The position numbers were made by a program, and so were the translations under genes. 64,000 nt of DNA from Mucilaginibacter cryoferens (GTDB lineage Bacteria; Bacteroidota; Bacteroidia; Sphingobacteriales; Sphingobacteriaceae): contig NZ_JACHCR010000014.1 of NCBI RefSeq assembly GCF_014205845.1, forward strand, positions 62,001 through 126,000, read 5' to 3'. The notes beneath the pieces are model-generated. The model was not told the DNA's origin. It did not search any database and saw only the letters and a program-made list of their open reading frames with translations. How positions within the stretch are numbered: the first letter of the stretch is position 1; each line of letters begins with the position of its first letter. Shown piece by piece: positions 11,618 to 24,802 of this stretch.

Positions 11618-13606
11618 TTAATTCACTTTTTCAAACCGTGCCGCCCAGCCTCCGCCGGATGCCAGTTTTACAGGTAGTTTATCTTTGGCGCTAACATTTA
11701 TTACTGTTCGTTTATAATCGGTTGCATCGCTGTTTGCATTTATGCCATCTTCAAATACAATGGCCTTGTAATTGCCATCGCCTAAAAAAGAAAGATCGAT
11801 GCTCAATGCTCTTGCATCCCAATTACTCATGGCACCGGCATACCAGGTAGTGCCTTTGCGGCGGGCTATGGCCACAAACTCGCCAACTTTGCCATCAAGC
11901 GCTACGGTTTCGTTAAAGGTGGTGGGTACGGCGGCTATAAAATCGGTACTCTCCTGTTCTTTGGTATAAATGGTTGGGTTATCGGCCATCATTTGCAGCG
12001 GGGCTTCAAATATGGTGTACATAGCCAATTGATGGCAGCGGGTGCCCTGGCTCATGGGGTTACCGTTTATTGGCCGGTAATTGGCCTTGTTGGCATTACG
12101 CATAGCCCCCGGAGTGTAATCCATAGGGCCAGATAGCATGCGGATAAAAGGTATGCTTACATCATAACCGGGATGGTTTGCTACGCCCCATTTTACATTT
12201 TCCAACCCTTTTACACCTTCAAAATTCACAATGTTAGGAAAAGTGCGCTGGATACCGCTGGGTTTATACATGCCATGGTAATCAACAATGAGGTGATGAT
12301 CTGCAGCTTTTTGGGCTATATCGTAAAGGGATGAAACCATCTTCTGGTCGTCCCGGTCTATAAAATCTATCTTGAAACCTTTTACACCCATTTCCGAAAA
12401 TTTAGCAAAGGCTGCATCCGTTTGGCGGGTAAGGGCATACCAGCTGGTCCACAAAATAAGGCCTACGTTTTTCTGTTTGGCATAGTCAACAAGCTCGGGC
12501 AAATTAATATCCGGCGAGATCTGGTTCAGATCAATAATGCTCGACCAGCCCTCATCCAGCACCACATACTCTACTTTGTTAGCCGCTGCAAAATCGATAT
12601 AGTATTTATAGGTTGGGTTGTTGATCCCCGCCTTAAAATCAACATGGCTGATGTTCCAGTCGTTCCACCAATCCCAGGCTACTTTGCCCGGTTTAATCCA
12701 CGATAGATCGGCCACCCGGGATGGCTCGGCTAATTTTTGTACCATATCGCTATTGGCCAGTTGCTTATCTTCGGTGCTAATGATCACCACCCGCCACGGA
12801 AAACTGCGGGTACCCTGTGTTTTGGCAATGTAATCGGCACGGCCGTTCACTATATAATTCATGTTTTCATAGCCGCCGGTATGTTCAACGGTTGGGTATT
12901 TGGCAAACGCGCCTTTAAGGTTTTTGCTGTTTTTGCCATCGCTGGTTAAATACATGCCGGGGTAGTTATTCAGGTCGGCCTCTAAAATGGCTGCTTTGTT
13001 GGGGTCGCCCACATCAACCAAAACAGGTAAAAATGCAAGCGTATCTTTTTTTACTGCAGATATGTTTATATTATCGTATAAAGCCTCAAAAGAGGTGGTC
13101 CATTTATCTTTGTTCCTAAAATCGTTTACAAAGGGCAGGTAGGCTTTATCATCATCTTTAAAATTAAAGTTAGCCTCCTCATCTACCACGGTGATATCTC
13201 CCTTTATTTGGGTAATAAAGCGGTAGGCAACACCATCGTTATAAGCCCGAAACACTACGCTGTAGTCGCCCTTAAAACCAATAGTTACCTGGTTGTATTG
13301 GTCATGTACCTTGTCTTTTTTATAAATGGGCGTGTTAAAATATTGATCGGCAGATGATGTTTTTGCCGATTTTACAACCGCGTTTTTACCCAATACCTCG
13401 CCATTTGCCAGCGTCATGGATATGGCCGATGGCGTAATAATTTCCGTATCCTGGTGCTTTACCTGCCAGCTGATGGCTGAGCCTGTGGTTACACCCAGGT
13501 CGATTTTACCATCGGGCGATTTTACGTGGTAACTTTTGCTCGATTGGGCAAGCGATATAATTACTGGAAAACACAGGGAAAGTGCGAGCAATAGTTTAAT
13601 CTTCAT
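11618..13606 (-). CDS. Glycoside hydrolase family 97 (alpha-glucosidase/alpha-galactosidase type)
   Basis: 662 residues with a cleavable signal peptide (hydrophobic core LLLALSLCFPVIISLA, then QSS), so periplasmic or outer-membrane facing. It has the three-part GH97 layout: an N-terminal beta-sandwich, a (beta/alpha)8 barrel from about 300 with KVAWDWWNDW and YVVLDEGWSS, and a short C-terminal beta domain. GH97 includes SusB-type inverting alpha-glucosidases and retaining alpha-galactosidases. GFKIDFIDRDD near residue 410 marks the barrel strand that carries the catalytic acid in the family. It is the last gene of a co-directional glycanase run (GH30, GH16, outer-membrane protein, GH97). Confidence 0.92.
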   Translation of the reverse strand: MKIKLLLALSLCFPVIISLAQSSKSYHVKSPDGKIDLGVTTGSAISWQVKHQDTEIITPSAISMTLANGEVLGKNAVVKSAKTSSADQYFNTPIYKKDKVHDQYNQVTIGFKGDYSVVFRAYNDGVAYRFITQIKGDITVVDEEANFNFKDDDKAYLPFVNDFRNKDKWTTSFEALYDNINISAVKKDTLAFLPVLVDVGDPNKAAILEADLNNYPGMYLTSDGKNSKNLKGAFAKYPTVEHTGGYENMNYIVNGRADYIAKTQGTRSFPWRVVIISTEDKQLANSDMVQKLAEPSRVADLSWIKPGKVAWDWWNDWNISHVDFKAGINNPTYKYYIDFAAANKVEYVVLDEGWSSIIDLNQISPDINLPELVDYAKQKNVGLILWTSWYALTRQTDAAFAKFSEMGVKGFKIDFIDRDDQKMVSSLYDIAQKAADHHLIVDYHGMYKPSGIQRTFPNIVNFEGVKGLENVKWGVANHPGYDVSIPFIRMLSGPMDYTPGAMRNANKANYRPINGNPMSQGTRCHQLAMYTIFEAPLQMMADNPTIYTKEQESTDFIAAVPTTFNETVALDGKVGEFVAIARRKGTTWYAGAMSNWDARALSIDLSFLGDGNYKAIVFEDGINANSDATDYKRTVINVSAKDKLPVKLASGGGWAARFEKVN

Positions 13607-13730: not shown

Positions 13731-14621
13731 TTACCAACCTAAACTCAATCCACCGGATACTTCAAAGCCGTTCCTTACCACCTCGTTCAGTTGGGTTTTA
13801 TCAACCTGGCCACTGTTAAGGTAAAGCTGATCGGTACCGTTGCCTGTTTGCCAGGTAAAATACCCGCCGCCAATTTGTATGGCTATATGGTTAGCAATAG
13901 CGTAGCTTAGTTTCCCTCCTGCTGCAATGCCATAACCATTGGCGTTATGGTGGTAGCTGATGGGATGCTGAAAGCTGGTGATCAGATTCCAGTTGCCATT
14001 ACTGTTATAGCTTACCTGGTGATAAGTTACATCGGCATTAAATTTTAGTTTTTTAATGAGCTGTAGTGATGATGTTAGTTTTGCAAAACCACCCTTCCAC
14101 TGTGGGGCGTATGAACTGTTCAGGTTGGGAAACATGCCATCGCGATTGAGCAGGCGAAGTGTTTCTTTGCTTTCGCCATAGCCAATATAAGGCGTTAAGC
14201 TGAAGTGATGGTTGTTAAAGATGATGAATCCGGCCCCCAGGTTCCATAAGCTGGTGCTGCCTTTGTTGGCATTAAAGGTTTGGTTATAGGTGTTGTTGCC
14301 CCTATTATCGGCACCATAGTCGCTATCGTTTACGGTGCCTGTGGTTATAAACTGCCTGCTGTAATCGCCATAAATAACAAAGCGTTTGTAAAAATTGTAG
14401 CTAACCGATGCGGCTACATTTTGGCCGCCTGCCTTCATCCATTTTAACTCCGATAATACGTTGGGGTTTTGCCCGCCAATATTGCCGGCTATAGACCAAT
14501 GGAAGTTTTCCTGCTGATAACCTGTACTTACATCAGCCTGCAACTTTTTTTCAATTAGCTGGGCATGCAGCAGCATAATGCCAGGCGCAAATACAAAGCA
14601 AAATGCAATAAATTTCTTCAT
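13731..14621 (-). CDS. Outer-membrane beta-barrel protein of unknown function
   Basis: 296 residues with a signal peptide (FIAFCFVFAPGIMLLHAQ) and a body of alternating polar/aromatic strands rich in Tyr, Asn and Gly (KRFVIYGDYSRQF, HHFSLTPYIGYGES, KLSYAIANHIAIQIGGGYF) ending in GGLSLGW. This is the usual look of a 10-12-strand outer-membrane barrel in Bacteroidota. No plug or TonB box is present. It lies between the GH16 and GH97 genes with gaps of 56 and 124 bases, so a role in oligosaccharide passage or surface binding is possible but unproven. Confidence 0.65.
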   Translation of the reverse strand: MKKFIAFCFVFAPGIMLLHAQLIEKKLQADVSTGYQQENFHWSIAGNIGGQNPNVLSELKWMKAGGQNVAASVSYNFYKRFVIYGDYSRQFITTGTVNDSDYGADNRGNNTYNQTFNANKGSTSLWNLGAGFIIFNNHHFSLTPYIGYGESKETLRLLNRDGMFPNLNSSYAPQWKGGFAKLTSSLQLIKKLKFNADVTYHQVSYNSNGNWNLITSFQHPISYHHNANGYGIAAGGKLSYAIANHIAIQIGGGYFTWQTGNGTDQLYLNSGQVDKTQLNEVVRNGFEVSGGLSLGW

Positions 14622-14677: not shown

Positions 14678-15901
14678 CTATTGATTTATGCCAAACGCTT
14701 CCCAGCCCGATGCTGTGGCGCGGGTACAGGTCATGGGTTGTGTGCCGTTTTCGCTGGAGATAAATTTGCCATTGTTGCCGCGTAGGGTTACTTTGCCATC
14801 GCTGGTGGGCACCCAGTCGAATTTTTCCCAGTCGCTAACGGTAGTGCGGTTACAGGTAATGGCCTGGGTACCGTTTTCGCTGCTTACATATTTACCCATG
14901 CTTTGCAGCGCTACTTTGCCTGCGCCGGCATCAACAACAGTAAAAGTTTCCCATGCCGAGGCGGTAGGGCGGTTACAGTTCATGGCTTGCGTGCCGTTTT
15001 CGCCACTTACATATTGGTTGTTAATACCTTTAAGGGTGATGTTGGTGCCAATAGGCGGCGATGTGGTACTACCCGAAAGATCATATACCCGCACATAATC
15101 AACCTGCATATTGCAGGGTAAAGCGCCATCGTTAATGGTATTGCCCGGTAAATCGCCACCAATAGCCAGGTTAAGGATAATGAAGAATGGGTTGTGGAAC
15201 GCCCCGGTATTGTTAATATTGCCGGCAATATTACCGGTTACATATAAGGTATTATCAACATACCACCTAATAGAATTGGTATCCCACTCCACAGCGTAGG
15301 TATGGAAGCCTGTTGGCGTAGTGGTAGTGCTGCCGCCATATTGCGTATGGCCGTTTACATACCAGTGCATGGTGCCCAATATGGTATTGGATGTATTTAC
15401 CTGTTCCATAATATCAATTTCGCCGCATTGTGGCCAGCCTACTGTGCCAATATTGGCCCCCAGCATCCAGAACGCCGGCCAGGTACCTTGCACGGCAGGT
15501 AGCTTAATGCTGGCTTCTATACGGCCATAAGTGGGCTGAAATTTGCCGGCAGTAGTGAGTTTGGCCGATGTATACGGCTGCCCGCCCACAGTTTCCTTAC
15601 GGGCTGTGATGGTTAAATAGCCACCAGATACAGTTGCATTGGCAGATTGATAGTACTCCTTCTCGTTATTAACACCAGGGTTGCCGTTATCAATGTTCCA
15701 GTTGGCGGTGTTTACACTGGTGCCGTTAAACTCATCGCTCCAGATAAGGGTTGCTGCCCGTGGCGTGGTGGTTTGGTTTGTTGCTGCGGCAACCGCAGTT
15801 GCCGGTGTTTGTCTGTTAGCATCTTTTTTGCAGGAAACGGCCATTACGGCCAGCGCCATTAGGGCCAGCGCGCCTTTTTTTAAGTTTAGAATTGTTTTCA
15901 T
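14678..15901 (-). CDS. GH16 endo-beta-glucanase lipoprotein with C-terminal three-repeat module
   Basis: 407 residues. The N-terminus is a lipoprotein signal ([12 protein letters not shown]), so the enzyme is membrane anchored, probably at the surface. Residues ~50-275 form a GH16 jelly roll with the catalytic motif GEIDIMEQ (nucleophile and acid/base Glu flanking the Asp). The closest look is to laminarinases/lichenases acting on beta-1,3- or mixed-linked glucans. Residues ~283-407 hold three ~40-residue repeats around [13 protein letters not shown], resembling a fascin/ricin-like beta-trefoil likely to bind sugar. The same module, almost identical, ends the GH30 gene just upstream. Confidence 0.92.
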
Positions 15902-15991: not shown

Positions 15992-17869
15992 TTACTTATT
16001 CACTCCAAAAGCTTCCCAGCCCGATATGCTGGTTCGGTTACAGGTCATGGCCTGGGTGCCGTTTTCTGATGATACATATTTGCCGTTGTTGCCGCGCAGG
16101 GATATGGTACCATCGGCGTTAATCAGCCAGTCAAATTTTTCCCAATCGCCGTAGGTGGTGCGGTTACAGGTGATGGCCTGGGTGCCATTTTCTGACGATA
16201 CATATTTACCCATGCCTTGTAGCGCCACTTTACCTGCCCCTGCATCAACCACGGTAAACTGCTCCCATGCCGATGCGGTTGGGCGGTTACAATTCATGGC
16301 TTGAGTTCCGTTTTCGCTGCTTACATATTGGCTATTGATGCCCTTGAGCGTAATAACCGAGCCAATTGGCGCGCCTGAGGATGATCCGCTTGATTGTGTG
16401 CCACTCCATTTAAAGGTTGCCACCGCGCCGGCGGCCAAGGAATAGGTGAAAGATTCGGCGCCCCATTTTACTTTAAAGCTTACAGCCGCGCTGCCGGTAT
16501 TAAGTGCTACCAGCACCTTGCTGCCATCGGCGTTTTTGAACGCCACGTTCTGGATATCGCCCGAGAGGTTAGAGGAGATGCGCACCGCCCCAGGCCTTAC
16601 AAAACGGGCTGCATGGCCAATAATGTAATACCCAACATTGCGGGTTATAGATGTACCGCTTACTGTGATAGCGCCTAAACAGGTACTGCAGCCACCTGCC
16701 GTATGCGGGTTGTAATTAACATCGGCTGCCAGGTTCCATTCTAAAACGTTGCGGCTCCAGTTACGGGTTGCACCAATAACCAGGTTGTTTACGTGCCATG
16801 ACAGGTCGCCGCCAAAATTGCTTGGCGCGCCAACCCACTGCTCGGTGAAGTATACATTTTTAGCCGGATAGGCATTATGCACATCGCTTAATGAAGCGAT
16901 GGCTCCCGCGTATAAGTGAAAAGCCGAACCATCTACATAGGGGTTTGCACCGGCATCGGCCAATACGGCTTCGGGATAGTCAATCCTATCGGTGTTATGG
17001 TCATAAGCGATAATCTTGGTAGCAAAGCCAGCCGCCCTTATTTGCGGGCCCAGGTTATTTTTGATGAAGTTGGCTTCTTCGCTGGCCTGCATCACCATAC
17101 TTGGATTGTTGTAGGGGTTAAGCGGTTCGTTTTGGGGCGTAATTGCATCAATGGTAATGCCCTGCGCCTGCATGGCTTGCAGATATTTTACAAAATAGAG
17201 GGCGTAAGCGCCATAATATGCCGTATTTAAACTACCGCCGGTATAGCCGTTATTGCCCGTAGTGTTTAGCTTCATCCAGGTTGGGGCCGTCCACGGTGTT
17301 GCTATAATTTTAATGGAGGGATTAATGGCGATGATCTTTTTCAATATCGGCAACAGATCCAGGTTCTCCTGGCTGATGCTGAAATTGTTCATGTTTACAT
17401 CGCCCGCTACCTGGTTATAAGTAAAATCGCTGGAGCTTAGGTCTGATGCACCTATGCTGATGCGCAGGTAGCTGATGCCTATTTGCCCGTTGGTTGTGCC
17501 AAAAAGTTCGTTTAAAACGGCGGCCTGGTTGCCGCCTAATCCGTTTAATAAACTGGCGCTGCCGCCGGTTAGGGTAAAGCCAAAACCATCAATGCCCTGG
17601 TATGTGGTGTTTTCGTCAACAGTTACGGTTGTGGCATTGGTGCCGGCATCTGCAGCAAAATTAAAACTGGTTTGGGCAGCCAAAAGGTTGGATTGGTCTG
17701 ATGTGGTAAGCCAGGTGTTTACCACATCATTAGCGGCGCGCGCCACCGTTCCGCTGGTTTCCTGTGCTTTTGCCGCCCCGGTATTGGCGTCCTTTTTACA
17801 GGAAAACAATAAGGCCGCGGGTAGCAGGGTGAGGACTGCTAATCGCTTTAAATTGTAGTTGATGTTCAT
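15992..17869 (-). CDS. GH30 glucanase lipoprotein with C-terminal three-repeat module
   Basis: Starting at the ATG at 17869 gives 625 residues with a clean lipoprotein signal ([13 protein letters not shown]); an in-frame ATG at 17911 would only add a non-signal stretch. The catalytic barrel shows GH30 acid/base motif [10 protein letters not shown] and nucleophile motif VYFTEQW, plus the beta-side domain near [19 protein letters not shown]30 subfamily 3-type enzymes cut beta-1,6-glucan; a glucosylceramidase-like activity is the alternative. A Ser/Gly linker joins the same fascin/ricin-like triple repeat found in the GH16 protein (about residues 505-625). It is 90 bases upstream of GH16 on the same strand, so the two may be co-transcribed. 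Confidence 0.92.
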
Positions 17870-18335
17870 AAAATTATTATTTGGTTTAATTGATTGCACA
17901 CTAAATTCCATGGCAAAAGGCTGGCTACGGCATTGCTAAATCGCTTTAACAGATTTAACCAATGCTTAAAACACAATAGTTTAACCGATGGTGAAAGCAC
18001 ATCGCTCAAAACAATTTTTCGGGAAGACAGGCTTATGTATGGTTTATAATTGTAAAACAAATTTATGCTATTTTAAATGTAATAAACAAGTAAAATATTC
18101 ATAAATAACTGATTAATAGTTAATTATATGTGTTTTGATACGCTTTAAACGCATGCGTAAAATATTAAAAACGAGGGTTTGAACGCTTATTCGGCGGTTT
18201 TTTATAGCTTGATAATTAATTATGATACGCTTCTATCACAATTAATTTTAACGAAAGTTAATACTGGAATATAATGGACAAAGATGTGACGTTTAAGGAA
18301 TTACTTTACCAAAAACATTACCTTTGATGTAATAT
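17870..18335. promoter_or_regulatory. Divergent upstream region of GH30 and gtrA-like genes
   Basis: A 466-base A+T-rich region without a gene. It holds two copies of TGATACGCTT (18137-18146, extended to TGATACGCTTTAA at 18149, and 18223-18232), a palindrome ACGCATGCGT (18150-18159) directly beside the first copy, and a TACCTTTG -7 element (18319-18326) for the plus-strand gtrA-like gene. The TGATACGCTTTAA sequence recurs upstream of the second GH30 gene. Confidence 0.5.
18319..18326 (+). promoter_or_regulatory. TAnnTTTG -7 element for the gtrA-like gene
   Basis: TACCTTTG, matching the consensus, 9 bases before the ATG at 18336. The short leader is common in this group. Confidence 0.45.
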
Positions 18336-18839
18336 ATGAGAAAGGTACACGATTTTATAAGGCGGACAATTTTTTACATCATCGACCTGTTTTATAAACC
18401 GTTTAAAAAATGGATGCCTCTGCATACTTTTCGTTACGCGGCCTGCGGCGGTGGTAATGTGGTATTTGATATTACGCTGTTTTCTATATGCTATAACTTC
18501 ATCTTTAAAAAGCAGGACCTCCATATCGGGGTGTACACGCTAAGTCCGCATATTGCATCATTGATTCTTTCGTTCAGTGTATCATTTTGTACCGGGTTTT
18601 ACTTAAACCGGTATATCATCTTTAAAGAGTCGGGCCTAAGTAAAAGGGGGCAGCTTTCGCGGTTTATTATGGTGAATGCAATCTGTATCCTTCTTAACGT
18701 CGTCTTCCTTAAAATACTGGTAGATTATATGGGGCTTTATCCAACGCCATCAAAAATTATCGCTACGGTATTTATCGCTTGTTTTAGCTATTTCAGCCAA
18801 ACGCATTTTTTCTTTAAGGCGAAGAAAGAAACTGTTTAG
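18336..18839 (+). CDS. GtrA-family membrane protein
   Basis: 167 residues with four hydrophobic segments in the GtrA pattern: an opening FRYAACGGGNVVFDITLF, a second helix with FSVSFCTGFYLNRYIIF, and a closing ATVFIACFSYFSQTHFFF. GtrA-like proteins are small inner-membrane proteins thought to help move lipid-linked sugars for cell-surface polysaccharide modification. No glycosyltransferase partner is adjacent. It is convergent with the sensor gene at 18899, separated by 59 bases. Confidence 0.85.
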   Translation: MRKVHDFIRRTIFYIIDLFYKPFKKWMPLHTFRYAACGGGNVVFDITLFSICYNFIFKKQDLHIGVYTLSPHIASLILSFSVSFCTGFYLNRYIIFKESGLSKRGQLSRFIMVNAICILLNVVFLKILVDYMGLYPTPSKIIATVFIACFSYFSQTHFFFKAKKETV

Positions 18840-18898: not shown

Positions 18899-20809
18899 TC
18901 AATCTGCCGAATTATCTATCACCAGCTTACTCCAGCCTTTAGATCCCGCGTTTTTGATCTCTTTTTTTTGAGCGTCCATGGCTTTTTTAATACGGGAACT
19001 GTAAGCCCAGCAGGTACTTTGGCGGATGGACAGTATCTCGGATAGTTTATGTGACGATATTTTGCCTTTGGTGGAGTACATTAAAAATATCATGTAAAAG
19101 GCTTTGTTAATAGGGATGCGCGTGTTTTGCAAAATGGTATAGGCAATTACCGATTCTTCGTATCCGCATTTGGAGCAGCGGCGACTGTAAGGCAAATGCC
19201 CCCCACCATAATGCGTGCCACCACATTTACGGCAGGCGTAACCGGTTTCCCACTTCAGATCGCTTAAAAATTTAAAGGAGGTTTCCCTGTCGGGATAGAT
19301 CTTGCTAAACTCTTCAAAATCAACCTCGGCCGACATTACCCTGTCGTGTGTTACCTTCTCAATATCATTATGTAAAATAATATTGTCTTTTTCCAGTAGC
19401 ACATTCATTCGCGAAATTTCCTCTGCCTGTTGTTGTAGCAACTCGTTCACCGAGCGGAGTTCTTCGTTCTGATCGGCAATCATTGATGATTTTTCAACCA
19501 GTTCTTTGGTGCGTTCCTGTACCTGCTCTTCCAACCGCTTATTGAGGTTGTCTTTTAATTCCTCGTTTTGCTTCATCTGTTTGATGATTGCCTGCTGGGC
19601 TTCGTCTTTCTCGTTTTTTAGTATCCGCACCTTATCGCCAATAGCGAAGGAAATAAACAGCATTTCGGTAATAAAACAAACACTCAGGCTGTAGTAATCC
19701 AACTCGGTAACGGGCAGCCACCACATATTTAGGGCGATGCAGCTTTTAATAACAAAGCCGATGAGCAAAAATGAGTAGCCGATAACAAAAAAGCGGGCCG
19801 GTTTATAACCCTTTGCCCAGGTGTAACAGCCCGAGTAAAATGCCAGCAGTAAGGGTATAAACTCGATGATCTTATAATTAAACCAGCTGTTATTTATGGC
19901 GATGCAGGCAATAAAAAATAACGTGCGTAAAGCGATAACCAACCGGGTAACCTTATATAAGCCAGGAGCATTTGCTTTTAAATTGAGCAGACTTTGAGTA
20001 AACAGCACCGCGAAAATGCTGGCAGCAAACAGCGCTATGCCGTAGGCGTACTGATTCCAGCCGGGATTGTTGGGCCATATATATTGATAGGCTATACCAT
20101 CGGCACACATTTCGTACAGGCCGATGCTGATATTGTAGGCAATGTAATACAGGTATTGTACCTTACGCATGGCCACAAACATCATGAGGTTATACAGGCC
20201 GAAAACCAATATCATACCATAAAAAACGCCGAAAAAGAAATACTCATCCAGCGCGTAACTAATAAACCAGCTTACCGTGCGCAACACCATAATAACGTTT
20301 ACAGAGTGGTGCGACCGGATGCGGATGTAATAAACAGCTTCGCCAGTATTGGGGTTGTTTAAGTTAAGACTAAAATTTTTATGATGATAAAACCTGGCCG
20401 AAAACAGGCGGCTGCTGCCCAGTAATATGGGCGTGTATTTATTTTGTGCATTGGGCGAATAAACAGTGATGCTATCAATTGTTTGGTCGAAAAACTCCAA
20501 TAGCCAATTGTTTTTGGTGTTGGTATTGCGGCCAATTTTTATGCGGTACCAATAAGCCGAGTTTACATTTTTGGTAACCGGTGTAGGCTCCTTATTCTCT
20601 GTGAAACGGTTATCGAAGCTGGTAGTATTTGCAGGATTAAATTTTACCTGCCCGGTGGTATCCTCAAAACAATAAACCTGTTTGTATTCAAAAATATGTT
20701 GCTTAACGTTGTCATTTAAAGGCACAACCGTTTGCGCGGAAAGTTGGTTGACAAAGCAGAATATTAACAGTAAAACCGGGAAAAAGCATCTCGATAAAAG
20801 TTTATACAT
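18899..20809 (-). CDS. 7TMR-DISM membrane sensor fused to an IS1595-transposase-like Zn-ribbon/HTH
   Basis: With the ATG at 20809 the protein has 636 residues; a TTG two codons earlier is the alternative. Order: signal peptide (1-25), extracellular 7TMR-DISMED2-like beta domain (~40-175), seven-helix 7TMR-DISM membrane block (~185-395), long coiled coil rich in Glu, Lys and Gln (~395-480), and a C-terminal domain. That last part has four Cys (526, 529, 545, 548) as CxxCGG...RRCSKCGYEES, then TRIPINKAFYMIFLM and the HTH-like SSHKLSEILSIRQSTCWAY. This matches the N-terminal Zn-ribbon/HTH of IS1595-group transposases, with no DDE catalytic domain. DISM proteins bind ligands, often carbohydrates. 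A membrane-tethered DNA-binding role in controlling nearby glucanase genes is inference. Confidence 0.8.
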   Translation of the reverse strand: MYKLLSRCFFPVLLLIFCFVNQLSAQTVVPLNDNVKQHIFEYKQVYCFEDTTGQVKFNPANTTSFDNRFTENKEPTPVTKNVNSAYWYRIKIGRNTNTKNNWLLEFFDQTIDSITVYSPNAQNKYTPILLGSSRLFSARFYHHKNFSLNLNNPNTGEAVYYIRIRSHHSVNVIMVLRTVSWFISYALDEYFFFGVFYGMILVFGLYNLMMFVAMRKVQYLYYIAYNISIGLYEMCADGIAYQYIWPNNPGWNQYAYGIALFAASIFAVLFTQSLLNLKANAPGLYKVTRLVIALRTLFFIACIAINNSWFNYKIIEFIPLLLAFYSGCYTWAKGYKPARFFVIGYSFLLIGFVIKSCIALNMWWLPVTELDYYSLSVCFITEMLFISFAIGDKVRILKNEKDEAQQAIIKQMKQNEELKDNLNKRLEEQVQERTKELVEKSSMIADQNEELRSVNELLQQQAEEISRMNVLLEKDNIILHNDIEKVTHDRVMSAEVDFEEFSKIYPDRETSFKFLSDLKWETGYACRKCGGTHYGGGHLPYSRRCSKCGYEESVIAYTILQNTRIPINKAFYMIFLMYSTKGKISSHKLSEILSIRQSTCWAYSSRIKKAMDAQKKEIKNAGSKGWSKLVIDNSAD

Positions 20810-21027: not shown

Positions 21028-22512
21028 TTACCAAATATATGTTGCAACGGCACCCGCATCAAGCGTACTTGTTGCTGTTTTGCCATCAATTTTAAAGCTG
21101 AAACTTTGTTGCGAAGTGCCGGAGTTTAAAACGATAAGCACCTTTGAGCCATCGGTATTTTTAAAGGCAACATTGGGTAGGTTAGATAGGTAGTCTGAGG
21201 CTATCCTAACCGCGCCGGGCCTTACAAATTTTGATGCATGGGCAATAATATAATACGATACATTGCGGGTAACGGTTGACGATGAAATGGTTAAAGCTCC
21301 CTTACATCCGCTACATCCGCCATCGGTATGGGGGCCATAATTGGGGTCGGTTGCCAGGTTCCATTCCAGCACATTGCGGCACCAGTTGCGTGTGGCACCA
21401 ACAATTAAATTGGTAACATGCCAGTTAAGGTCGCCGCCAAAGCCGCCGGTTGCCGGGGTGTATTGCTCAGTAAAATAAATATTTTTAGCAGGGTACATAT
21501 CGTGCAGGGGCGATAACGCGTTGATGCTGCCCGCATATAAATGGAAAGCCGAGCCATCAATATAGGCGCTGGCCGCTGTATCCTGAAAAATAGTTGTTGG
21601 GTAATCAACATGGTCGGCATTATGGTCGTAGGCAATAATTTTGGTAGTTATGCCGGCGGCTTTAAATTGTGGGCCAAGGTTGTTTTTTATAAAGGTGGCC
21701 TGCTCATTTGCCTGCATGGTCATTGCCGGGTTGTTGTTGGCATTCAGCGGTTCGTTTTGCGGGGTAATGGCATCAATGGTAATGCCCTGTGCTTTCATGG
21801 CTTGTATGTATTTTACAAAGTAATTGGCATAGGCGCTGTAATACGCTGTATTTAGGCTGCCGCCCATAAAGCCATTGGCGCCAATGGGCGAACTCTTCAT
21901 CCAGGTTGGGGCCGTCCATGGGCTGGCCAGTATTTTGATGTTGGGGTTTATGGCCAGTATTTTTTTGAGGATGGGGATCAGGTCGGTTTTTTCCTGGTCT
22001 ATAGAGAAGTTTTTCAAGTCTGGGTCGGTTTGGCCGGGGGTAACTTCGTCATAAGTATAGTCAAAGCCGCTCATGTCTGATGCGCCGATACTGATCCTGA
22101 GGTAACTAACCCCGATGTGGGTGCCATCGGTGGCAAACAAGTCGGTTAGCAGGGCGTTCTTCTCGGTGTCGTTCATCAGGTTTATAACCTGTGCGCTGCC
22201 GCCGGTAAGGCAATAACCAAAGCCATCAATAGTTTGGTAGGTGGTTGCTGCATTAATATTTATAACCGGGCCAGAAACCGCCCCGCTGCCAAAGTTAATG
22301 GCCACGTTTTGTTTAGTGAACGCTTGCGATTGATCTGCGGTGGTAAGCCACATAGCAACATCGCTGGTTAAAGGGGTGGTTGGTGTTGTTGGCGTAGTTG
22401 GCTTGTCCGGCGTTGCCGGTGTGGCCGTTGATTTTTTGCCGCAAGCCGGCATAGAGCATACGCTTAATGTAATAAAAGATGCAAGAAGAACGTTGGTAAA
22501 ACTCTTTTTCAT
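21028..22512 (-). CDS. GH30 glucanase lipoprotein, single-domain paralogue
   Basis: 494 residues with a lipoprotein signal (ITLSVCSMPAC), then a Thr/Pro-rich linker (residues ~27-46) and the GH30 catalytic domain. The acid/base motif [11 protein letters not shown] and nucleophile motif IYFTEQYTP are intact. It aligns end to end with the catalytic part of the GH30 protein at 15992 but stops at TSTLDAGAVATYIW, lacking the triple-repeat module. This suggests two paralogues for the same backbone (beta-1,6-glucan is the best guess), one with a binding module and one without. Its upstream region shares the 13-bp TGATACGCTTTAA with the other GH30 gene. The sensor gene lies 218 bases downstream on the same strand. 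Confidence 0.92.
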   Translation of the reverse strand: MKKSFTNVLLASFITLSVCSMPACGKKSTATPATPDKPTTPTTPTTPLTSDVAMWLTTADQSQAFTKQNVAINFGSGAVSGPVININAATTYQTIDGFGYCLTGGSAQVINLMNDTEKNALLTDLFATDGTHIGVSYLRISIGASDMSGFDYTYDEVTPGQTDPDLKNFSIDQEKTDLIPILKKILAINPNIKILASPWTAPTWMKSSPIGANGFMGGSLNTAYYSAYANYFVKYIQAMKAQGITIDAITPQNEPLNANNNPAMTMQANEQATFIKNNLGPQFKAAGITTKIIAYDHNADHVDYPTTIFQDTAASAYIDGSAFHLYAGSINALSPLHDMYPAKNIYFTEQYTPATGGFGGDLNWHVTNLIVGATRNWCRNVLEWNLATDPNYGPHTDGGCSGCKGALTISSSTVTRNVSYYIIAHASKFVRPGAVRIASDYLSNLPNVAFKNTDGSKVLIVLNSGTSQQSFSFKIDGKTATSTLDAGAVATYIW

Positions 22513-22596
22513 AAGTTAGGGGATGATTTTACAGAAGCCTGTAAAATGCTGTTAAAATGAGATGATCTGGTTAAAATTGGTTGCTTAACTTTACTA

Positions 22597-22632
22597 ATAT
22601 ATACATCAATTAACGGGTTAACAAGTATATAT
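22597..22632. promoter_or_regulatory. Two-layer inverted repeat between GH30 and modA
   Basis: Outer arms ATATATAC (22597-22604) and GTATATAT (22625-22632) enclose inner arms TTAAC and GTTAA around GG. A plus-strand TATATTTG -7 match (22628-22635) overlaps the right arm. It could be an operator for either divergent gene; the A+T-rich arms keep confidence low. Confidence 0.35.
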
Positions 22633-22672
22633 TTGTGGGGTTATGGTATAAAAACAGATGTTTTTAAATTTC

Positions 22673-22685
22673 TGATACGCTTTAA
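22673..22685. promoter_or_regulatory. Shared motif TGATACGCTTTAA upstream of GH30
   Basis: Identical over 13 bases to 18137-18149, which lies upstream of the other GH30 gene. Here it is 161 bases before the GH30 ATG (22512), and there 268 bases. It is also 46 bases upstream of modA on the other side. Confidence 0.5.
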
Positions 22686-22730
22686 TACCAACAGAAACCC
22701 ATAGCTGCCAAATAAATAAAACAAAACACA

Positions 22731-23501
22731 ATGCCATATCAACAATACAATAGCAAGCCATTAAAAAGCATATTTTTTTTAATTGTTTTTTGCGTTACCG
22801 CGCATTTGCCGGTGTTTGCCCAAAATGTGAGGGTTGCGGCGGCGGCCAACCTGCAATCGGTAATAGAGGTGCTGCAAAAAGATTTTAAGCAAAAAACAGG
22901 TATTACTATCGATCCGGTTATCGGCTCATCGGGTAAGCTGGTAGCGCAGATCAGTAACGGGGCGCCGTTTGATGTGTTCTTATCTGCCGATATGAGTTTT
23001 CCCGATGCTTTGTATAAAGGCGGTTTTGCTACTAAAGAGCCGGTGGTGTATGCTAAAGGCAGCCTTATTATTTGCAGCAGCCAGGATATTGGCTTTAATA
23101 ACTGGGAGCGGCTTTTATTAACCGCCCGGATAAGCAAAGTTGCTATTGCCAATCCGGCTATTGCCCCCTATGGCAAGGCGGCCGAAGAGGTTTTAAAGCG
23201 CAAAGGCATAGCCGATGAAGTAAAATCGAAAGCTGTTTATGGCGAAAGCATATCGCAGGTAAATACCTACATTATCACCGGGGTGGCCGATGTGGGCTTT
23301 ACCACACAATCGTTAATTAAGGAAAATAAAGCCCGGCTATACTACAAAATTATAGATACTAAGGATTATACCCCCATTTTACAGGGCATGGTGCTGTTAA
23401 AGCATGGCGCTGCCAATCCCGGTGCCGAAAAATTTTATCAGTATATTTTAAGTCCGGCGGCTAAAAGTATTTTGGCTGGCTATGGTTACCGTGTACAATA
23501 A
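22731..23501 (+). CDS. modA: Molybdate ABC transporter substrate-binding protein
   Basis: 256 residues with a signal peptide (IFFLIVFCVTAHLPVFAQ) and then the ModA start VRVAAAANLQSVIEVLQ. Conserved ModA segments follow: GSSGKLVAQISNGAPFDVFLSAD (oxyanion-binding Ser region), ANPAIAPYGKAAEEVL, YGESISQVNTYIITGVADVGF, and the C-terminal YQYILSPAAKSIL. It captures molybdate or tungstate in the periplasm and passes it to ModBC. It is followed after 15 bases by modB, so the three genes form an operon. No molybdopterin biosynthesis gene or Mo-enzyme is visible in the window. Confidence 0.94.
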   Translation: MPYQQYNSKPLKSIFFLIVFCVTAHLPVFAQNVRVAAAANLQSVIEVLQKDFKQKTGITIDPVIGSSGKLVAQISNGAPFDVFLSADMSFPDALYKGGFATKEPVVYAKGSLIICSSQDIGFNNWERLLLTARISKVAIANPAIAPYGKAAEEVLKRKGIADEVKSKAVYGESISQVNTYIITGVADVGFTTQSLIKENKARLYYKIIDTKDYTPILQGMVLLKHGAANPGAEKFYQYILSPAAKSILAGYGYRVQ

Positions 23502-23516
23502 CCCCTATTTTTGTTG

Positions 23517-24188
23517 ATGGACCTTTCACCAATATGGCTCACTTTAAAGCTGGCAGGTATTACTACAGGTATGCTGTTTGTGGTTGGTGTGCCTTTTGCC
23601 TGGTGGCTATCAACGGGGCGATCCTTCTTTAAGATCATTATAGAGGCTATTATAACCATGCCCCTGGTGTTGCCGCCATCGGTATTGGGTTTTTATTTAC
23701 TGTTGGCTTTTAGTCCGCAGCATGGCGTGGGTAAATGGTTGCATAATACATTTGATGTTCAGTTTGTATTCTCTTTTCAGGGCCTGGTACTGGCCTCGGT
23801 AATTTACAGCATGCCTTTTATGGTGGGCCCGGTAAAATCGGCATTGCAGCAGCTCCCTGCATCGCTGGCCGAAGCATCTTATACCTTAGGCAAATCGCCA
23901 TGGCAAACGTTTAAAAGTGTTTTGCTGCCCAATATTAAGCCATCGTTGTTAACCGCAGTTGTGCTCACCTTTGCCCATACGCTGGGCGAGTTTGGGGTAG
24001 TGCTGATGATAGGCGGCAATATTCCCGGCGTTACCCGGGTGGCATCCATCGCCGTTTATGACGCTGTAGAGAAAATGGATTATGCATCGGCCAATAACTA
24101 TTCGCTCATTTTGTTCTCCATAACGTTTGTATTGGTGATAGCTGTTTTTGTGTTTAATAAGTACCAAGCCAAAAGCCCTTTAGGATGA
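23517..24188 (+). CDS. modB: Molybdate ABC transporter permease
   Basis: The ATG at 23517 (two in-frame TTG codons precede it) gives 223 residues with five to six membrane segments. The ABC permease EAA-type loop appears as ASLAEASYTLGKSPWQTFK, and LPPSVLGFYLL and GEFGVVLMIGGNIPG are typical of ModB. It forms the inner-membrane channel of the molybdate importer. It ends in an ATGA overlap with modC, indicating translational coupling. Confidence 0.94.
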   Translation: MDLSPIWLTLKLAGITTGMLFVVGVPFAWWLSTGRSFFKIIIEAIITMPLVLPPSVLGFYLLLAFSPQHGVGKWLHNTFDVQFVFSFQGLVLASVIYSMPFMVGPVKSALQQLPASLAEASYTLGKSPWQTFKSVLLPNIKPSLLTAVVLTFAHTLGEFGVVLMIGGNIPGVTRVASIAVYDAVEKMDYASANNYSLILFSITFVLVIAVFVFNKYQAKSPLG

Positions 24189-24802
24189 TTACTATCAATA
24201 TCGAAAAAAAGCTAAAGGCCTACCATGGGCAGCAGGTATTGCGGGTTAACAGGCAATTTGCCCCCGGCAGTATTACCAAAGTATATGGCCCCTCTGGATC
24301 TGGCAAAACCACGTTTTTAAAAGTGATATCCGGATTAACTAACCCCGAGAGGGGAACGATTAAGGCCGATGGTGTCACTTGGTTTGATAGTACGGCGAAG
24401 ATTAACCTATCAACCCAAAAAAGAAATATTGGCTTTGTGTTTCAGCAATACGCGCTGTTTCCTAACATGACCGTAAGGCAACACCTGGAATATGCTACTG
24501 CTGATGTGGCATGGATAAAGCGGCTGCTTTTATTAGGCAGCTTAGATACCCTTGAAACCCATAAACCCGAATATCTATCCGGCGGGCAGCAACAACGATT
24601 AGCCATACTGAGGGCATTGGCAACCAGGCCGAAGCTGCTGTTAATGGATGAGCCCTTTTCTGCCCTCGACCCCAAAACGAAAACGGGGTTAATAAGCGAA
24701 TTAAAAACAATACTGAAAGAACTTGGCATCACAACCATTATTGTAAGCCACAACCCGCAGGAGCTGAGTGGCTGGGTCGATGATGAATTGGTGTTTGAAT
24801 AA
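24185..24802 (+). CDS. modC: Molybdate ABC transporter ATP-binding protein, short form
   Basis: 205 residues with Walker A GPSGSGKTT (35-43), Q-loop FVFQQYALFP, signature LSGGQQQRLA (from 131) and Walker B LLLMDEPFSALD near 150. It is an ABC ATPase powering ModAB. It ends right after the ATPase core and lacks the C-terminal mop/TOBE domain (about 140 residues) of E. coli ModC, so allosteric molybdate feedback by that domain is absent. The ATG overlaps the modB stop. Palindromic repeats start 8 bases after its stop. Confidence 0.92.
   Translation: MITINIEKKLKAYHGQQVLRVNRQFAPGSITKVYGPSGSGKTTFLKVISGLTNPERGTIKADGVTWFDSTAKINLSTQKRNIGFVFQQYALFPNMTVRQHLEYATADVAWIKRLLLLGSLDTLETHKPEYLSGGQQQRLAILRALATRPKLLLMDEPFSALDPKTKTGLISELKTILKELGITTIIVSHNPQELSGWVDDELVFE

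Follow-up and report, generated by a model that had tools for sequence, protein, structure and literature searches.

The 64,000-nucleotide stretch analysed here (the window) comes from Mucilaginibacter cryoferens (NCBI RefSeq assembly GCF_014205845.1, contig NZ_JACHCR010000014.1, positions 62,001 to 126,000). A gene on its minus strand (ATG at 20809, stop codon at 18899–18901) encodes a protein in which a membrane sensor is joined to a DNA-binding-type module resembling the N-terminal part of IS1595 transposases; the open reading frame, strand and coordinates given in the initial annotation of this DNA were confirmed. The architecture, homology, recurrence, gene neighbourhood, motif and motif geometry reported below were all computed. 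The gene and its domains are as follows.

18899–20809, minus strand: regulator gene encoding a 7TMR-DISM sensor, a coiled coil and an IS1595-type Zn-ribbon and helix-turn-helix (HTH), 636 aa.
20282–20683, minus strand: periplasmic DISMED2 sensor domain, residues 43–176 (Pfam 7TMR-DISMED2, E = 2.5e-26).
19631–20245, minus strand: seven-helix membrane domain, residues 189–393 (Pfam 7TMR-DISM_7TM, E = 1.1e-44; helices in the AlphaFold2 model).
19334–19624, minus strand: long helix/coiled coil, residues ~396–492, presumed cytoplasmic (AlphaFold2 model).
19160–19285, minus strand: IS1595-type Zn-ribbon, residues 509–550 (C526, C529, C545 and C548, invariant across 64 sequences).
18959–19126, minus strand: IS1595-type HTH, residues 562–617, with the presumed recognition helix RQSTCW (positions 1–57 of model NF033547).

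The two Pfam matches bore out the 7TMR-DISM sensor with seven helices that had been read from the sequence at first. In the AlphaFold2 model, the predicted local distance difference test score (pLDDT) was below 50 at residues 464–487 of the long helix. The DISMED2 domain resembled the periplasmic domain of RetS in fold, and the window protein shares the combination of DISMED2 and DISM_7TM with the 7TMR-DISM receptors RetS and LadS. RetS and LadS have kinase outputs, whereas the output of the window protein is a DNA-binding-type domain. In searches of Pfam and NCBIfam with the window protein at E ≤ 1, no histidine kinase, receiver or AraC domain was matched, which sets it apart from the hybrid two-component systems (HTCS), and no match was found to the DDE catalytic part of transposases, in accord with the initial annotation, which had noted the lack of a DDE nuclease. 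Many relatives are named "chromosome partitioning protein ParA" or "sensor histidine kinase LadS" in databases, names that the domains found did not support.

The IS1595 assignment of the C-terminal module was examined at several levels. The Zn-ribbon match (PF12760) was weak for the window protein alone (E = 0.0073, 16.7 bits, cut-off 25.4 bits), whereas its relatives L113 and L111 exceeded the Pfam cut-off with 31.9 and 28.0 bits; the proposed Zn-ribbon thus stood for these relatives and fell below the cut-off for the window protein by itself. The HTH half matched the IS1595 transposase model NF033547 over its first 57 positions, out of 215 (E = 1.3e-7), with a score of 31.7 bits that falls under the whole-protein cut-off of 75 bits. 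When a profile of 45 fusion modules was aligned by hhalign with 12 distant IS1595-type sequences, 124 columns were matched with a probability of 99.9 and an E-value of 1.7e-32, whereas three column shuffles reached a probability of at most 0.2. Ten transposase-like genes of one genome (G357) aligned with the module at 38–41% identity, and L121, the one transposase-type gene tested, carried both a Zn-ribbon and DDE_Tnp_IS1595. Because relatives passed the Pfam cut-off and the profile alignment and the transposase-like genes agreed, the homology of the module to the N-terminus of IS1595 transposases, as first proposed, is secure. Genome G357 held at least ten diverged IS1595-type genes (L121 and L162–L169 among them).

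When 395 Bacteroidota genomes were searched with the module alone, 43 were matched at E ≤ 1e-6. The matches comprised fusions (open frames of ~620–720 aa), transposase-type genes (~300–340 aa) and short frames, and the closest transposase-type genes were 38–42% identical to the module. The window protein shares with IS1595-family (ISXO2-like) transposases a Zn-ribbon and HTH over ~110–125 residues; it differs from them in the membrane sensor and in the missing DDE match, and the fusions are set apart in a module tree. In this quick tree (71 rows, 130 columns, midpoint root only, labels assigned by us), a single branch with a Shimodaira–Hasegawa-like approximate likelihood ratio (SH-aLRT) support of 96 parted 25 transposase-type rows from 44 DISM fusions, one Reg_prop fusion and one stand-alone protein. 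The Reg_prop fusion was placed among the DISM fusions, and a single clade of both fusion types was not rejected by the approximately unbiased test (p-AU 0.59). The tree, limited by its few columns, fits one domestication, in which an IS1595 transposase would have lost its catalytic half and given rise to the DNA-binding module. The stand-alone protein (L119:1194–1607) is an IS1595 Zn-ribbon/HTH protein of 137 aa with 32.1 bits, over the Pfam cut-off, and no DDE match; it is perhaps another domesticated regulator.

Full-length relatives were found in 62 of 201 Sphingobacteriaceae genomes, several of which had two or more; this was a hand count in which one match lay in two pieces of one frame and genome G001, matched at 12–485 only, was counted as being without. 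Further full-length relatives turned up elsewhere in the Bacteroidota. Named hosts, from which 80 of 94 loci were retained (the named loci), include Mucilaginibacter, Pedobacter, Arcticibacter, Desertivirga, Hufsiella, Olivibacter, Solitalea, Dyadobacter, Deminuibacter and a Cyclobacteriaceae metagenome-assembled genome. Among the matches listed in the protein search, the four-cysteine pattern was present in 120 of 120 and RQSTCW in 119 of 120. The helix was near-constant in the family except in the clades f8 and f9, the latter of which keeps RQGTCW or RQATSW. The same module also occurred on a second sensor type: in a Desertivirga relative (L037:9109–12345), it follows nine Reg_prop repeats and a Y_Y_Y domain. 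Reg_prop/Y_Y_Y is the usual HTCS sensor. With the part of the L037 protein from Y_Y_Y to its end as query, the 120 matches listed of 2353 comprised three Reg_prop proteins (from two Desertivirga species and Daejeonella) and 117 DISM proteins; the remaining matches may match through Y_Y_Y alone.

Since the module resembles half a transposase, it could be regarded as a functionless remnant of a recent IS1595 insertion. The conservation of the module makes this very unlikely, to the point of being negligible: across 63 rows, mean identity to the window protein was 0.41 for the sensor, 0.59 for the seven-helix domain, 0.69 for the Zn-ribbon and 0.75 for the HTH, so that the two DNA-binding-type parts were the most conserved, and the four cysteines were invariant. 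That several families have the module, and that it is also joined to another type of sensor, likewise speaks against a remnant.

A direct repeat of GGTATTnAAGCGTATCA, with copies 77–79 or 86–94 bp apart, was found upstream of the target genes. AAGCGTAT was the top 8-mer in 46 regulator-to-target intergenic regions and was present in 35 of them, and 43 exact AAGCGTATC sites, three of which came from the window, revealed the extended GGTATTnAAGCGTATCA. The 5' flank of the motif differed between clades. A leave-one-region-out scan of 48 regions, in which two regions came from the window and close relatives remained in the training set, gave 31 same-strand spacings, 30 at 86–93 bp and one at 232 bp, against 0.007 hits per region in a shuffled background. 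In the named loci, a pair at 70–100 bp was present in 53 of 80, and the reversed matrix gave one pair; the spacings fell at 77–79 bp (13) and 86–94 bp (41) with none at 80–85 bp, and the two classes lie about one helical turn apart. Where loci shared no 40-mer with the training regions, 34 of 73 still had a pair at 80–100 bp. In a second set of 64 loci, used for the neighbourhood count (65 stretches with L038 left out; the context loci), the pair was present in 33 of the 60 with the fusion and in none of the four without, with four spacings at 77–79 bp and 32 at 86–93 bp.

In the window, which was scanned with a matrix free of any site contributed by it, exactly three sites scored above 20 bits, all on the strand of the GH30 (glycoside hydrolase family 30) genes that they precede, and weaker ones reached 12.6 bits at most. 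The sites and the accompanying promoter boxes are listed below.

18221–18239, minus strand: distal repeat copy GTGATAGAAGCGTATCATA, 20.6 bits, part of the only strict pair of the genome.
18134–18152, minus strand: proximal copy GCGTTTAAAGCGTATCAAA, 87 bp from the distal copy, 21.6 bits.
18058–18065, minus strand: −7-type promoter box TAAATTTG (TAnnTTTG), 87 nt past the start of the proximal copy.
22671–22689, minus strand: single copy GGTATTAAAGCGTATCAGA upstream of the second GH30 gene, 27.3 bits.
22594–22601, minus strand: −7-like box TATATTAG, 88 nt past the start of the single copy GGTATTAAAGCGTATCAGA.

Both regions singled out beforehand as candidate targets, 18137–18232 and 22673–22685, contain the conserved motif. 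TAnnTTTG, which we take to be the Bacteroidota −7 box, accompanied 44 of the 84 non-identical pairs at no more than 140 nt from where the proximal copy starts, compared with 8.6 in shuffled sequence, and 35 boxes were at 85–89 nt. A further conserved block, ATCAGTTATTTA, was seen ~37–50 nt past the start of the proximal copy, between the copy and the promoter, both at the window promoter with the 18134–18152 copy and in the family consensus. A motif pair (79 bp) also precedes the Reg_prop/Y_Y_Y gene of L037, ~200 nt from it and on the same strand, a hint of auto- or cross-regulation.

This geometry bears on the direction of control. If the fusion bound the motif and repressed the promoter until released by ligand, looping between two distant copies would be compatible with their position. 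Measured to the −7 box, the proximal copy starts ~85–89 nt upstream, where it does not overlap the core promoter, a position typical of activators, and SusR, which works alike, is an activator (PMC3878776); we think repression unlikely. The module might also still serve a function tied to transposons, for instance in silencing IS1595 elements by binding their ends, and transposase-like genes with RQ-TCW helices do exist. The neighbours of the fusions are, however, genes of polysaccharide utilization loci (PULs), with the motif at a fixed distance in PUL promoter regions; moreover, nine transposase-like genes, which as diverged copies provide a weak test, had no consistent terminal repeats and best motif scores of ~4–11 bits. 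Such a role is highly improbable.

The strict pair occurred once in the 7-Mb draft genome of the host, at window 18137–18232. In the 201 genomes, there were 41 occurrences in 36 genomes, compared with two of the reversed pattern, and the pair was present in 28 of the 62 fusion-bearing genomes and in 8 of the 139 others (Fisher p = 1.3e-10). Of 30 pairs assigned loci, 23 preceded a PUL gene, as judged by similarity to the context set, all in fusion-bearing genomes; the other seven (L133, L135, L136, L137, L140, L145 and L154) had no recognised PUL gene downstream. Some pairs were distant from the regulator, for example at L139 (susC), L146 (GH3) and L147 (GH30). Sites of ≥14 bits were absent from 30 TonB/SusC loci of the host genome (30 of 122; best 13.4 bits), whereas 26 of 33 fusion-susC regions, which include the training regions of the matrix, had them.

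These results suggest that the regulator probably reads a repeated DNA signal. Loci that hold the fusion and have no clear pair count against this view: 27 of 80 named loci and 27 of 60 fusion-bearing context loci had no pair at the thresholds used, and nine pair-less loci in each set had a single site of ≥14 bits. The pair-less loci would suit an explanation in which another regulator, for example a neighbouring two-component system or a distant factor, uses the repeat as its operator, with the fusion acting otherwise; in one block of loci, the fusion has neighbours of kinase type and response-regulator type (clusters 6 and 9, read from sequence). These two clusters were present in just 13 of 64 and 10 of 64 loci, however, and the pair was also found at Dyadobacter, Deminuibacter and Cyclobacteriaceae loci and followed fusion presence across the genomes. 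Clade f8, with a different HTH, was without the pair. We regard another reader of the repeat as quite unlikely.

In the five f8 loci (L113 and L115–L118), the fusion lies near susC/susD, and neither RQxTCW in the HTH nor AAGCGTAT in the intergenic regions was found. CGATTTCGG was common to three of the five f8 intergenic regions, and no other motif was established for this clade. Clade f9 showed only a weak single variant of the motif.

The neighbourhoods pointed to glycan utilization. The context loci with the fusion held 64 fusion genes of more than 400 aa, and neighbour clusters were named from one or two Pfam-tested representatives each. A PUL-type gene lay within six genes of all 64. The next gene was a same-strand susC for 33 and susC lay within six genes for 44; within the same distance were susD (39), GH30 (36), GH5 (18), GH3 (16), GH2 (10), GH16 (9), alginate-lyase family (7) and second susD cluster (5) genes. 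With 122 TonB plug matches in the host genome, we estimate that a susC would follow by chance in a few percent of cases. The initial annotation had asked whether the sensor-module combination recurs near glycanase genes and had suspected a link to glucan genes. The architecture does recur in this setting, and the motif and promoter box lie upstream of both window GH30 genes and at related loci. The size of the family, its ties to susC/susD loci and the close parallel to SusR go beyond what had been proposed.

In the window, the regulator stands between one GH30 gene and the same-strand series GH30-GH16-Pom-GH97, with no susC adjoining.

21028–22512, minus strand: second GH30 enzyme, predicted target (PF02055).
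18336–18839, plus strand: GtrA-like membrane protein between regulator and repeat (PF04138), probably outside the system.
15992–17911, minus strand: GH30 enzyme, predicted target (PF02055, E = 1.5e-39).
14678–15901, minus strand: GH16 enzyme downstream of GH30, predicted to be in the same transcription unit (PF00722).
13731–14621, minus strand: outer-membrane protein of the Pom family, possibly co-transcribed (PF17251).
11618–13606, minus strand: GH97 enzyme, possibly co-transcribed (PF10566).

The nearest solved structures to the GH30 enzyme at 21028–22512 were 5ngk/5ngl (352 bits; next 171 bits). These structures are of BT3312, the endo-1,6-beta-glucanase of the 1,6-beta-glucan PUL of B. theta, which is headed by BT3309 and includes SusCD, GH30_3 and GH3 (PMC5481569).

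Three types of regulator of glycan use have been described in Bacteroides: SusR-like proteins, HTCS and ECF sigma/anti-sigma pairs (PMC3878776). The fusion would share the role of PUL regulator with HTCS (same source). Its closest parallel is with the SusR type (SusR and BT3309 of B. thetaiotaomicron, and others): both are membrane one-component regulators often beside susC/susD, which in the window cluster is not the case, and both have direct repeats with long spacers as predicted operators, of 77–79 and 86–94 bp here and in 67 and 77 bp classes one helical turn apart for SusR-type proteins (PMC3878776). The sole SusR-type candidate compared (L266), picked by its GH97-, susC-, susD- and SusE/F-type neighbours as read from sequence and not by name, had DUF6377 (PF19904, 303 bits) and no similarity to the window protein (best 17.7 bits), in which DUF6377 was not matched by Pfam. 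Our best reading is that the fusion works like SusR and is unrelated to the one candidate compared; this comparison gave no sign that the fusion is a member of the SusR type.

Taken together, we consider it likely that the window protein activates the transcription of glycan-utilization genes as a membrane-tethered one-component regulator, in which an IS1595-derived module reads a direct repeat. We infer that the protein binds the repeat, that its ligand is an oligosaccharide and that it activates rather than represses. The periplasmic DISMED2 domain would sense an oligosaccharide, here probably a beta-1,6/1,3-glucan fragment, and the signal would travel via the seven helices and the coiled coil (as dimerising helix) to the cytoplasm. 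There, two Zn-ribbon/HTH domains would be positioned to bind the direct repeat, whose copies lie ~7–9 helical turns apart, and binding would activate a housekeeping-type promoter with its −7 box 87–88 nt past the start of the proximal copy. In the window, the protein is predicted to act on the GH30-GH16-(Pom-GH97) cluster and on the second GH30 gene.

A bolder reading, which we hold to be doubtful, is that the fusions form a further PUL regulator class at the level of the phylum, derived from a single event in which the DNA-binding module of IS1595 was domesticated onto membrane sensors that can be swapped, with specificity arising from action in cis on the neighbour. The nascent regulator, anchored in the membrane and made directly upstream of the target promoter, would act mainly on its own neighbour. 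Cis action in place of DNA sequence as the source of specificity is suggested by paralogues whose sensors differ greatly: they have a common recognition helix, and their operator core is almost unchanged.

No paper on this regulator was found in the one open-access library searched, in keeping with the earlier remark that no characterised example was known. If the activator reading is true, a widespread regulator class with a predicted operator would be added to the three described for Bacteroides glycan use, and bacteria would offer in the fusion a clear example of a DNA-binding domain, taken from a transposase, that serves as the output of a membrane sensor. The comparison suggests that beta-1,6-glucan loci in different lineages use unrelated regulators in the same circuit design. 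Many related species have the fusion next to genes for the digestion of sugar polymers, along with the repeat that it probably reads, and this points to a little-known type of switch for the use of complex carbohydrates.

Two further observations were made in the window. The GH30 enzyme at 15992–17911 and the GH16 enzyme at 14678–15901 have common C-terminal repeats with DUF7910 matches, which in the GH30 enzyme are below the cut-off, and the GH16 enzyme also matches Fascin. The second GH30 gene is adjoined, on the opposite strand at 22731–24802, by genes of a molybdate-type ABC transporter (binding protein, permease and ATPase, read from sequence).
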